Below are positions 27,210 through 57,803 of a stretch of DNA of 64,000 bases, piece by piece. The translations under genes and the position numbers were made by a program. This stretch comes from Marinobacter sp. CHS3-4 (lineage in GTDB: Bacteria; Pseudomonadota; Gammaproteobacteria; Pseudomonadales; Oleiphilaceae). The stretch's first letter is position 1, and each line of letters opens with the position of its first letter. The stretch lies in assembly GCF_030053415.1 (NCBI RefSeq), contig NZ_JASGBJ010000001.1, forward strand, positions 496,001 to 560,000. Direction: 5' to 3'. The notes under the pieces were generated by a model. That model did no database searches. It was not told the origin of the DNA and saw only the letters and a program-made list of their open reading frames with translations.

Positions 27210-27863
27210 ATGGCGTCGCAGAGCATTCTGAATGCGCATCTGGCCAAAACTCTCAGTAAAGGATCAGTCGCGGTTACCCAACCGGCAGGTTGCCCCGAGG
27301 TATCGCTGTACCTGTTTGATCCTGCCGCACTGGAAGGCCCGATCAGTCATGAGGAAGCTCAGGCGGTGGTCGCCGAGCCGGCGTACTGGTCGTTTTGCTG
27401 GGCCAGTGGCCAGGTACTTGCGGCCTACATTCTCGAGCATCCAGAACTGGTCAGGGGGAAAACCGTTCTGGATTTTGGCTCCGGGTCCGGTGTTGTCGCC
27501 ATTGCAGCAGCCAGAGCCGGCGCGCGCGAGGCCATTGCCTGCGACATTGACCCTGCCGCATTGGATGCAGCAAACGCCAATGCCTCATTGAACGATGTTT
27601 CGATCACTCTGTGTGACGATTGGCAACAACCTCCGGGCGATATTGATCTGTTGACCGCTGCCGACGTGTTGTATGACCCGGAGAACCGGTCATTGCTGGC
27701 AGAGTTTCGTCAAGCGGTTCCTCGAGTGTTGCTGGCCGACTCGCGGCTGAAAACTCTGGGTGATGGGGCCTATCAGCATCGGTTGACGCGAGAGGCGCGC
27801 ACCTGGCCGGATCTGCATGAGTTTGAAGAGTTCAATCGCGTAAGAATTTATCTGGCTGGGTAA
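27210..27863 (+). CDS. Class I SAM-dependent methyltransferase, ETF-beta lysine methyltransferase-like
   Basis: A 217-residue methyltransferase. Motif I is VLDFGSGSGVVAIAAARAG (DFGSGSG at residues 88-94), followed by the acidic loop ACDIDPAALDAANANASLN and the motif LLTAADVLYDPE. The preceding PAYWSFCWASGQVLAAYI resembles the METTL20/PrmA-like group that methylates lysines of electron transfer flavoprotein beta. The substrate is not provable from sequence; ribosomal protein L11-type methylation is the alternative. Its stop is 22 bp before the 3' end of the convergent CsrB-like RNA; the shared hairpin may end both transcripts. Confidence 0.8.
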   Translation: MASQSILNAHLAKTLSKGSVAVTQPAGCPEVSLYLFDPAALEGPISHEEAQAVVAEPAYWSFCWASGQVLAAYILEHPELVRGKTVLDFGSGSGVVAIAAARAGAREAIACDIDPAALDAANANASLNDVSITLCDDWQQPPGDIDLLTAADVLYDPENRSLLAEFRQAVPRVLLADSRLKTLGDGAYQHRLTREARTWPDLHEFEEFNRVRIYLAG

Positions 27864-27885: not shown

Positions 27886-27918
27886 ATAAAAAAAGGGCAA
27901 CCTCTCGGTTACCCTTTT
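27886..27918 (-). terminator. Intrinsic terminator of the CsrB-like RNA, possibly bidirectional
   Basis: The arms 27891-27902 and 27907-27918 form a 12-bp stem (one G-U or mismatch position) around a 4-nt loop GAGA on the minus strand, followed by seven U residues. On the plus strand the same stem is followed only by TTTTCGG, so it may weakly end the methyltransferase transcript. Confidence 0.9.
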
Positions 27919-28089
27919 CGGAACAGGTCTTGCCTTCCATGAGTCCTGCTAACCCGTCCCTGGTGTCGGCGTCCGAGCCGACCGTCCAATTAGTTATCCC
28001 TTAAGCGAGGCGTCCCTGTATCCTTGCCTCTCCCTGCGTCCAGTGCCGGGGTGCATCCAGTGCGTCGTCCTTTCCCTGTCATCCTTGAT
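27886..28089 (-). ncRNA. csrB: CsrB/RsmZ-family CsrA-sequestering regulatory RNA
   Basis: Read on the minus strand, this 204-nt stretch has no credible protein frame but carries 14 GGA motifs, most as AGGA, AGGGA or TGGA, the CsrA/RsmA-binding signal. Some sit in hairpin loops: GTCGGC-TCGGAC-GCCGAC (27965-27982) and GCACTGGATGC. It opens with CAAGGATGACAGGGA, resembling E. coli CsrB, and ends in a GC-rich stem (AAAAGGGTAACC/GGTTGCCCTTTT) followed by a U-run. A TATAGT -10 lies 7 nt before the proposed 5' end, and a GacA-type dyad about 170 bp upstream, as for rsmY and rsmZ. Such RNAs bind several CsrA dimers and free mRNAs from translational repression. csrA and gacAS are not in the window. 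The exact ends are estimates. Confidence 0.88.
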
Positions 28090-28095
28090 GTTGAA

Positions 28096-28101
28096 ACTAT
28101 A
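28096..28101 (-). promoter_or_regulatory. -10 element of the CsrB-like RNA
   Basis: Minus-strand TTGGTATAGT contains the hexamer TATAGT with a TG-type upstream extension. No good -35 was found at 16-18 nt, which fits an activator-dependent promoter. The proposed RNA 5' end is near 28089. Confidence 0.6.
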
Positions 28102-28257
28102 CCAATCGTTTCGTGTCATTCGTGTGAACCAGATCGGGTTTTTCGGGGCGGACTACGACCAAAGTTTAATGGAGTGTTTAAAAACAATTAGTTGGGAAGT
28201 GTTTTTGCTCATCTTGCCATCGTGCGTACGAGATATCGCCGCATGATCTCACGTCAA

Positions 28258-28275
28258 TGTAAGAGATATCGCACA
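28258..28275 (-). promoter_or_regulatory. Candidate GacA/UvrY upstream activating site
   Basis: Minus strand TGTGCG-ATATCT-CTTACA against the GacA consensus TGTAAG-N6-CTTACA: 10 of 12 arm positions match and the right arm is exact. It lies about 170 bp upstream of the proposed RNA start, the usual distance for GacA sites of rsmY/rsmZ. Confidence 0.55.
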
Positions 28276-32538: not shown

Positions 32539-34986
32539 ATGACGATAATCTTACTTGTGGTGGCGGTAGTTGGTCTGCTCGCGTTGTTGCGAAAAGAGGC
32601 TGGCGCCAAACCCGTAATTGGCCTTTTGGCAGTGACTGGTGTGTTGTCGCTGTTTTTCGCCTCTGGTGTGCTGGCGCTGGTTTTGCTTGCCGGCGCGGCG
32701 GCTACCGCAGCAGCGGGATTGCCTGGCTTTCGTCAAAGCTGGCTGACGCCGCGAATCTTCGCGATGTTCAAGAAAGTGGCGCCCAAGGTGTCTGACACTG
32801 AGAAAGTGGCGCTGGAAGCCGGCACCGTTGGCTGGGATGGCGAAATCTTCACCGGTCGTCCCGATTGGCACAACCTGCTGATCAACCGCAACACCGGCCT
32901 GACCGAGAAGGAACAGGCGTTTATTGATAATCAGTGCGTGAAAGCGGCCTCTATGTGTAACGCCTGGGACGTGGGCGTCGAGCGAGCTGATCTTCCGCCA
33001 GAGCTTTGGGAATTTCTGAAGAAGGAAGGCTTCTTCGGCATGATCATTCCGGAGGAGTATGGTGGCCTTCACTTCTCGGCCAAGGCACAGAGTGCTGTGC
33101 TTCAACGCCTCTCCTGCAACGAAAGTTTGATGGTCTCCGTCGGCGTTCCCAACTCCCTCGGCCCCGGCGAGCTGTTGGTGAAGTACGGTACCGAAGAGCA
33201 GAAGAACCACTATCTGCCGCGCCTTGCGGATGGCCGCGACATTCCCTGCTTCGGCCTGACCGGCCCCCGCGCTGGCTCTGACGCCACGTCGCTTCCAGAC
33301 ACCGGTATCGTGTGCAAGCAGAAGTTCAACGGCAAAGAAACCCTTGGCATCAAACTGAATTTTGAAAAGCGCTGGATTACTCTGGCGCCGATCGCCACCG
33401 TGGTAGGCTTGGCGTTCCGGATGTTTGACCCGGACGGCCTGTTGGGCGACACCAAGGACTATGGCATTACCTGCGCCCTGATTCCTCGCGATACCAAGGG
33501 CATGGAGATTGGCCGTCGTCATTGCCCGATCGGCAGCCCGTTCATGAACGGACCGATCAAAGGCAAGGATGTCTTCATCCCGTTGGATTACATCATCGGT
33601 GGTCAGGAAATGGCTGGCCAGGGCTGGCGCATGCTGGTTGAGTGTCTGTCTGTGGGTCGCTGTATCACGTTACCATCCGGTGCAGCCGGTACCGCTGCTT
33701 ACGCCGCAGGCACCGCAGGTGGCTTTACCCGAATCCGTCGCCAGTTCAATACACCGGTGGCTGATATGGAAGGCGTGCAGGAGCCATTGGCTCGCATCGC
33801 CGCAAGCACCTACATTGCGCAGTCTGCGGTTAATCAGACGGCCAACATGATCGATAAGGGCGAGAAACCCGCCGTACCGTCGGCCATCCTGAAATACCAT
33901 CTCACCGAGATGCAGCGCAGTGTACTCACGGACGCCATGGACGTTCATGGTGGCAAAACCGTCACTCTCGGCCCCCGCAACTATCTGGGCATTAGCTACA
34001 GTGGTGCAGCGGTGTCGATCACCGTTGAGGGTGCCAACATCATGACCCGCAGCCTTATGATCTTCGGGCAGGGCGCCATTCGCTGCCATCCTTACGTTCT
34101 TAAAGAGCTGGCGGCCAAAGATAATGACGATGTCAAAGCGTTCGACGAAGCCTTCTTTGGCCATGCCGGCCTGATCTTCGGCAACGCTGCTCGTGCACTG
34201 ACTCTGGCCTTCGGTGTTGGCAAATCCGACGTGCCGTTTGACAGTGCCGCACGCAAGTACGCACAGGCCGTTGCCCGCTTCAGTGCCGCCTTTGGCCTAT
34301 GCTCCGATGCGGCCATGACGACGCTGGGCTCTGAGCTAAAAATGCGCGAACTGATCTCTGCTCGCCTGGGCGACATCCTGGCCAATCTCTATCTGGCTTC
34401 GATGGTGCTGAAGAACTGGCATGAAAACCAGCCGGTGGAAGGCGAGCGTGATCTGATGGAGTACAGCCTGTCGCTGCTGCTGCATCGCGCCGAAAATGCG
34501 TTGGATGAATTCCTTCAGAACCTCCCGAATCGAGCAGTTGCCCTGGTGCTGCGTGGCGTGACCATGCCGCTGGGTCGTCGATGGGACAAGCCGCACGACG
34601 ACATGGCCAGAAGCCTGGCCCGTGCGATCTCTACAGACAGCCCGGTTCGCACCAAACTGCTTGAGAGCGTTTGGAGCACAAACGAAGAGGGCACGGTGGA
34701 GAACCCGGTGGCCCAGTACAATGGCCTGTTGAAAGACTACGACAAGGCAGAGGCCCTGTACCGCAAGGTGACCAAGGCCTACGCCAAAGGCCAGCTGCCG
34801 ATGACGGCTCTGCATCCGGAAGAGCGCTTTGAAGAGGCATTGAAAGCGGACATCTTCTCCAAGGAAGAAGCAGACTTCATGCGGCGCTACGAAGAAACCG
34901 TTCTTGAAATGCTGACCGTCGACGACTTCCCGTTCGATGCGTTTGCAGCCAACAAGGACACGCTGATCAACCACAACCCGTCCTGA
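32539..34986 (+). CDS. fadE: Acyl-CoA dehydrogenase FadE
   Basis: Membrane-associated first enzyme of fatty acid beta-oxidation, oxidising acyl-CoA to trans-2-enoyl-CoA with FAD. The 815-residue product equals E. coli FadE (814). Two N-terminal hydrophobic segments (IILLVVAVVGLLALL and VTGVLSLFFASGVLALVLLAGAAA) anchor it. The acyl-CoA dehydrogenase core includes GLTGPRAGSDATSLPDTG and DAMDVHGGKTVTLGPRNYLG; the long C-terminal domain is specific to FadE. Start: ATG 32539, preceded by GAGAG; a GTG at 32530 is in frame. The upstream 100 bp is AT-rich but I see no clear FadR or PsrA site. Confidence 0.95.
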   Translation: MTIILLVVAVVGLLALLRKEAGAKPVIGLLAVTGVLSLFFASGVLALVLLAGAAATAAAGLPGFRQSWLTPRIFAMFKKVAPKVSDTEKVALEAGTVGWDGEIFTGRPDWHNLLINRNTGLTEKEQAFIDNQCVKAASMCNAWDVGVERADLPPELWEFLKKEGFFGMIIPEEYGGLHFSAKAQSAVLQRLSCNESLMVSVGVPNSLGPGELLVKYGTEEQKNHYLPRLADGRDIPCFGLTGPRAGSDATSLPDTGIVCKQKFNGKETLGIKLNFEKRWITLAPIATVVGLAFRMFDPDGLLGDTKDYGITCALIPRDTKGMEIGRRHCPIGSPFMNGPIKGKDVFIPLDYIIGGQEMAGQGWRMLVECLSVGRCITLPSGAAGTAAYAAGTAGGFTRIRRQFNTPVADMEGVQEPLARIAASTYIAQSAVNQTANMIDKGEKPAVPSAILKYHLTEMQRSVLTDAMDVHGGKTVTLGPRNYLGISYSGAAVSITVEGANIMTRSLMIFGQGAIRCHPYVLKELAAKDNDDVKAFDEAFFGHAGLIFGNAARALTLAFGVGKSDVPFDSAARKYAQAVARFSAAFGLCSDAAMTTLGSELKMRELISARLGDILANLYLASMVLKNWHENQPVEGERDLMEYSLSLLLHRAENALDEFLQNLPNRAVALVLRGVTMPLGRRWDKPHDDMARSLARAISTDSPVRTKLLESVWSTNEEGTVENPVAQYNGLLKDYDKAEALYRKVTKAYAKGQLPMTALHPEERFEEALKADIFSKEEADFMRRYEETVLEMLTVDDFPFDAFAANKDTLINHNPS

Positions 34987-35008
34987 TTTGGTTGGGTTTG
35001 TGGATGAG

Positions 35009-35036
35009 AAAAGGGCGCCAAATGGCGCCCTTTTTT
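35009..35036 (+). terminator. Intrinsic terminator after fadE
   Basis: Stem GGGCGCC (35013-35019) with GGCGCCC (35024-35030), extended by flanking A-T pairs, loop AAAT, then six T. A run of A on the left makes it usable on both strands. Confidence 0.92.
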
Positions 35037-35148
35037 GTGAGATGCAGGAAACGGATTCTTCTTGCCGCCTTAACTTGTATTCCCATTGACGGCATACTCA
35101 AAGGACCCCGAACCGCGGAAAGCTCCAACTCAAGAGGTCCCGAACAGG

Positions 35149-56693: not shown

Positions 56694-57803
56694 TCAAGAG
56701 GGCTGGTGAGTGTCCGGATCCGCTTCGGCTTCGTGGGTACGTACCCGTGGCGCGATTCGGTTTCGGCCATTTTCTTTGGCGCTGTATAGATGCAGATCCG
56801 CGTGTTTGAGCAGTTCATTGACTGAGCCGGTTTTGGCGATGGAGCAGACGCCGGCACTGATGGTCACCGGCATAGAATCCCCGGCAAAGCTGAATTCGTG
56901 TTTTGCGACCTTTTGTCGCAGTCGTTCGGCCAATGTCAGTGCCTGCAACAACGCCGTGTCTGGCAACAGGATCAGGAACTCTTCACCACCCCATCGTGAA
57001 GCCACATCGGCTTTGCGAATAACAGCGTTCATCAGCGTTGCGAAGTCCTTGAGAACCTGGTCTCCGGCGTCGTGACCGTATTCGTCATTGATGTGCTTGA
57101 ACAGGTCGAGGTCGATCAACACGATAGAAAAGTGGTGCCCGGAACGTTGGTGACGGGAAAACTCCTCGTTCAGCCGGTGTTGCATATCGCGACGGTTTGA
57201 CAGACCGGTTAATTCGTCCGTCTGTGCCGCCTGCTTGTGAGCCTGCGCAAGGTCCATCAGTTCCTTGCGGGCATTGAGTCTTGAGGCTTCCAGCACAAAA
57301 CAGAAGATAGACTCGAAGGCGAGCGCGGCAAAGAAACGGATCTTGAAGTCACTGCTGTATTCAGCGGTAACGATGGGCAGATCTGGAAACTGGAACACCA
57401 CAATGGCCACAAAGGCACAGAAAAGGAGGACGGCGGTGCCGGTCTTGAGGTCAGTGAGATAGAACAGCAAAGGCGGGAACACATAAAACCAGAGCGGGCC
57501 GGTGTTGCTTTCTCCGCCCGTAACGATCAGGTAGCCGAACAACAACCCGACAATGGATATCAGCCCGCCTTTCTGTTGCGCGCGGCTGCCGGTGTGGGCG
57601 AAGATCAGCATATTGGCGACGACCAATCCGCCGAAAGCCCAGAGCACCCAGGCATGGACGTGATGCTCAGAAAACCAGGCCTTGCCGCCAATCCCCAACA
57701 GGAAGAGCACGGCCATGACTGACAGGGCGTTCAGCAGGCGTGATACGCGCGCCTCTTCGCTCTCTATCGCAAACTGATGGCTGGGTTGTTGGGAGCTGGC
57801 CAT
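56694..57803 (-). CDS. Membrane diguanylate cyclase (GGDEF)
   Basis: A protein of about 369 residues with an N-terminal block of six hydrophobic helices (residues about 20-180) and a C-terminal GGDEF domain. The active site is SRWGGEEFLILLPD, intact, and the product-inhibition I-site RKAD lies exactly five residues before GGEEF. DELTGLSNRRDMQHRL marks the start of the cyclase domain, and the metal-binding DLDLFKHINDEYGHDAGD is present. It should make c-di-GMP under feedback control. The start is uncertain: ATG 57803 is used; GTG 57848 is also in frame and neither has a clear ribosome site. Confidence 0.9.
   Translation of the reverse strand: MASSQQPSHQFAIESEEARVSRLLNALSVMAVLFLLGIGGKAWFSEHHVHAWVLWAFGGLVVANMLIFAHTGSRAQQKGGLISIVGLLFGYLIVTGGESNTGPLWFYVFPPLLFYLTDLKTGTAVLLFCAFVAIVVFQFPDLPIVTAEYSSDFKIRFFAALAFESIFCFVLEASRLNARKELMDLAQAHKQAAQTDELTGLSNRRDMQHRLNEEFSRHQRSGHHFSIVLIDLDLFKHINDEYGHDAGDQVLKDFATLMNAVIRKADVASRWGGEEFLILLPDTALLQALTLAERLRQKVAKHEFSFAGDSMPVTISAGVCSIAKTGSVNELLKHADLHLYSAKENGRNRIAPRVRTHEAEADPDTHQPS

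Follow-up and report, generated by a model that had tools for sequence, protein, structure and literature searches.

The minus strand of Marinobacter sp. CHS3-4 very probably encodes, between positions 28089 and 27888 of our window (the whole 64,000-nt stretch of DNA that was analysed), a small RNA that sequesters CsrA in the manner of CsrB and RsmZ and is activated by GacA/UvrY. The locus has an array of GGA motifs, conservation among relatives, covarying hairpins, a promoter, an intrinsic terminator and an upstream UvrY box, and the genome has csrA, uvrY and barA-like genes. The initial sequence-only reading had called it "the organism's CsrB-like RNA". The conserved GGAs, the covarying hairpins, the box and the CsrA, UvrY and BarA-like proteins bear out the CsrB/RsmZ type, but we now write "a" rather than "the" CsrB-like RNA, because a second GGA-array RNA exists in the genome.

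The predicted transcript is 202 nt long, with its +1 near 28089. Counting over the 204 nt from 28089 to 27886 returned the 14 GGA motifs of the earlier description, including 9 ANGGA. Across both strands of the 64-kb window, the next-best 204-nt stretch has 12 GGA (mean about 3), and 9 ANGGA are reached nowhere else (mean 0.56 per stretch). Dinucleotide shuffles of the stretch itself gave at least 14 GGA in 107 of 5000 cases and at least 9 ANGGA in 4 of 5000, and the fold is more stable than that of shuffles (z of -2.5). The claimed -10 box is found as TATAGT at 28101..28096, inside the conserved TTGGTATAGT, seven bases ahead of the inferred start, and it is kept in an alignment of 110 homologues. 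We found no good match to a -35 hexamer in the sequence upstream of it, which would fit an activator-dependent promoter. Just upstream of the -10 region, at 28115-28128 on the minus strand, column conservation in the same alignment reveals a promoter-proximal element with consensus TCACACGTTTGTAA, here TCACACGAATGACA. It may be the counterpart of the site, near -35, at which UvrY is crosslinked close to the E. coli csrB promoter. The terminator (27918..27888) is a GC hairpin followed by the seven T expected from the earlier reading, with changes on both sides in 10 of its 11 pairs among relatives. Neither the promoter nor the terminator was picked up by a simple pattern scan; both were read directly and are backed by conservation.

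As in other members of the CsrA-sequestering class, a putative UvrY/GacA box lies upstream. This 18-bp palindrome, TGTGCGATATCTCTTACA (28258..28275, minus strand, at -186), agrees with TGTAAGN6CTTACA at 10 of 12 positions, i.e., with 2 mismatches. Since a score of at least 9 is reached in about 10% of shuffled upstream regions, the score alone has modest weight. The palindrome stays between -186 and -190 in almost all 110 homologues, and this fixed position across some 100 genomes is a strong argument that it serves as a UvrY/GacA box. The corresponding box of E. coli csrB, TGTGAGAGATCTCTTACA, lies at -191 and is bound by UvrY in ChIP-exo and footprinting experiments (PMC4682653). The genome encodes the proteins of such a circuit: one copy of CsrA, a UvrY scoring 300.7 (above the NCBIfam cut-off of 280), and a full-length BarA-like kinase which, at 848 bits, falls just below the equivalog cut-off of 890. 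Upregulation of CsrA has been reported in a Marinobacter (PMC10516948). Elsewhere in the window, the only match to the GG[DE]EF pattern is a GGEEF motif at 56990 on the minus strand, likely part of a diguanylate cyclase; the sequence-only reading had named the c-di-GMP genes of the window as possible targets of the RNA.

The RNA is widespread in the genus and the family. Of the 124 genomes of the genus, 116 have a DNA homologue of a 441-nt region, and the locus lies between a methyltransferase gene and a VanZ-like gene in 27 of 29. All named genomes with a homologue by DNA pattern are Marinobacter, except one MAG labelled Hyphomicrobiales. A covariance model (R1) has matches in 143 of 151 genomes of the family, covering 14 of its 16 genera, with low scores in the distant ones. 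R1, which was built from sequences including the window's own RNA, matches the window at 194.7 bits over exactly 27888..28089. The search across the order outside the family returned weak scores only (at most 33 bits, where rough E-values are unreliable) and nothing convincing; these are not much higher than the 22.5 bits of a match at 34948..35038 of the window, which we read as an unrelated hairpin terminator, and were not counted as homologues. Within the genus, five near-complete genomes (G049, G074, G067, G097 and G021) have a weak match or none, and they may have a different sponge RNA or have lost it.

Conservation is centered on the motifs. Over the 110 aligned homologues, identity to the window is 0.90 in GGA columns, 0.74 in the other transcript columns, 0.49 upstream and 0.28 downstream. 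Among the Marinobacter genomes compared, the GGA columns are thus the most conserved, the opposite of the outcome (motifs diverging, flanking bases kept) named in advance as contradicting the RNA. For 13 of the 14 GGAs of the RNA, no fewer than 108 of the 110 homologues have a GGA at most 4 nt away (control positions, mean 2); the exception, at 27946, is beside a gap in the window sequence and may be misaligned. The number of GGA per homologue is held at 13-17 in all of them.

The structure is also maintained. In 33 diverse sequences, 41 hand-checked pairs are 96% formed, and 20 of the 41 show compensatory changes on both sides, a count that none of 500 shuffles matched and a signal that is lost when partners are slid by 1-3 columns; the alignment was built by sequence and not fitted to the structure, which was itself derived from the same sequences. 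Several motifs of the conserved GGA/ANGGA array, a hallmark of the class, lie in hairpin loops, as had been proposed. An example is the hairpin GUCGGCUCGGACGCCGAC (27965..27982, minus strand), which has a GGA in its loop in the geometry of a CsrA site, 99.5% of cells paired, and compensatory changes. Another hairpin, GCAACANGGNNGUUGC, is kept in the other aligned relatives and absent from the window's RNA, which is 202 nt long vs a median of 229 in homologues; the RNA is thus shortened in this species. The 5' GGAUGACAGG and the 3' CCUGUUCC may form a long-range helix, backed mostly by conservation and little by covariation. The 5' arm of this possible helix, GGAUGACAGGGA (28073..28084, minus strand), has 93% of cells paired with the 3' ACCUGUUCC (~27932..27924, minus strand), but the pairs are mainly conserved rather than covarying.

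This last block is one of several highly conserved segments outside the GGAs, as would be expected of a structured RNA acting mainly by base-pairing with mRNAs, with CsrA binding being secondary. We regard such a mode of action as very unlikely, since what is conserved is above all the array of GGAs and a promoter of the csrB type. Even less probable is that the stretch serves only to terminate transcription in both directions and to space the methyltransferase and VanZ-like genes, which converge, with incidental GGAs: a hairpin does lie directly past the methyltransferase stop at 27863 and the sequence is T-rich on both sides, but conservation spans the whole 200 nt and peaks on the GGAs, the promoter and the UvrY box are conserved, and upstream of the terminator there are further hairpins that covary. 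Finally, open frames are present (41 aa at 28119..27994 on the minus strand, 55 and 67 aa on the plus strand), but a small protein is the least credible product, because the covarying pairs and the GGA pattern fit an RNA and, for the 41-aa frame only, 85 of the 110 homologues have a net frameshift and 6 keep the ATG, in agreement with the earlier statement that no protein frame is present. By sequence and conservation, the CsrA-sponge locus is thus non-coding, with its own promoter and intrinsic terminator.

Rfam does not know this RNA. The search with the CsrB (RF00018), PrrB_RsmZ (RF00166) and RsmY (RF00195) models, proposed as a check by the sequence-only reading, gave no match, the window RNA reaching none of their gathering thresholds. 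A scan of the window and the stretch yielded nothing relevant even at an E-value of 10, the sole match in the stretch being an irrelevant terminator-like one on the plus strand, and a scan of 20 relatives at an E-value of 5 gave nothing relevant either; E. coli csrB, our positive control, reaches 380 bits when searched in this way. Annotation based on Rfam would therefore miss the RNA as well. Given the absence of an Rfam match and a mode of working that would resemble that of CsrB and RsmZ, we place it in a known kind of RNA, as a member not yet catalogued. In the literature that we searched, we found no description of a sponge RNA in Marinobacter, and an earlier prediction may exist.

The RNA shares with E. 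coli CsrB the GGA/ANGGA array, GGAs in hairpin loops, the intrinsic terminator and a UvrY palindrome at about -190 (TGTGAGAGATCTCTTACA in E. coli, TGTGCGATATCTCTTACA here). It differs from it in length (202 vs 369 nt), number of GGA (14 vs 22) and flanking genes (yqcC/syd in E. coli), and has no alignable body: aligning it with E. coli CsrB and with the second RNA gave nothing meaningful. The claimed CsrB-like opening was reduced to a slight likeness, the shared GACAGGGA only. In Pseudomonas, RsmX, RsmY and RsmZ are GacA-controlled sponges of CsrA/RsmA with GGA in loops, and rsmZ adjoins fdxA. Our RNA would be of this kind, under Gac control and with GGA in loops, but it lacks a match to the PrrB_RsmZ or RsmY models and its genomic location differs. 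By description, it also resembles CsrB and CsrC of Marinomonas mediterranea, two predicted sponges with a GacA box, ANGGA motifs and a terminator, which RNA-seq showed to be lower in mutants of a BarA/UvrY-like pair (PMC8523701); here the box, the motifs and the terminator are read from the sequence. Transcriptomics has revealed CsrA sponges in other marine Gammaproteobacteria, which we again liken by description: Aln1a-c of Alteromonas macleodii (PMC5864184) and CsrR1/CsrR2 of Alcanivorax dieselolei (PMC9788540).

The second GGA-array RNA turned up when 1.66 Mb of the genome were scanned for dense ANGGA. It lies on the minus strand (G000:C1:1077332..~1077130; L283:17130-17332), ahead of a ComEA-like gene, with repeated hairpins bearing ANGGA loops, a TAGAAT box and a putative GacA box, CGTAAGAGATGTCTCACA, at -74. 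It has homologues in 105 of the 124 same-genus genomes, and for 10 of its GGAs no fewer than 29 of 30 aligned homologues have the motif too. Its whole-length fold is no more stable than shuffles, we found no clear terminator, and it has neither an Rfam match nor a convincing match to R1. A further 0.8 Mb (about 2.46 of 3.72 Mb scanned in all) revealed no third sponge RNA. Several ANGGA clusters were rejected as sponges: three (L279, L247 and L254) are at least partly inside long open frames, those of at most 6 ANGGA elsewhere in the scanned DNA look coding, and one (L234) is upstream of a gene and beside the end of a ClpV-like gene. The latter (L234:6911-7209; C1:426911-427209) is a GGA-rich leader with hairpins that lies between the end of the ClpV-like gene and the gene downstream, in an apparent type VI secretion locus (L234 spans C1:420001-440000), and it may be a CsrA-controlled mRNA leader. 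It is conceivable, if rather doubtful, that Marinobacter and its family have two uncatalogued families of CsrA sponges, distinct in sequence and in the position of the UvrY box (-186 vs -74), the first with the GCAACANGGNNGUUGC hairpin (lost here) and a possible 5'-3' helix that could control turnover or the strength of titration.

From the sequence, we infer how transcription, activation by UvrY, CsrA binding and the targets of the sponge RNA would be connected. A BarA/GacS-type kinase would drive the phosphorylation of UvrY/GacA, which, once phosphorylated, would bind the palindrome at 28275..28258 and switch the promoter on. Transcription from around 28089 would then yield an RNA of about 200 nt that ends at the terminator (27888). 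The 13-14 GGA of this RNA, in hairpin loops and unpaired stretches, would bind several CsrA dimers, and this titration would free CsrA-repressed mRNAs. In Marinobacter, a widespread genus of marine bacteria that degrade oil and form biofilms, CsrA is known, and the sponge RNA would supply the RNA side of the Csr system that had been missing. A new RNA family could be founded on the alignment and covariance model, and the two RNAs open the Csr circuit of Marinobacter to direct testing by deletion.
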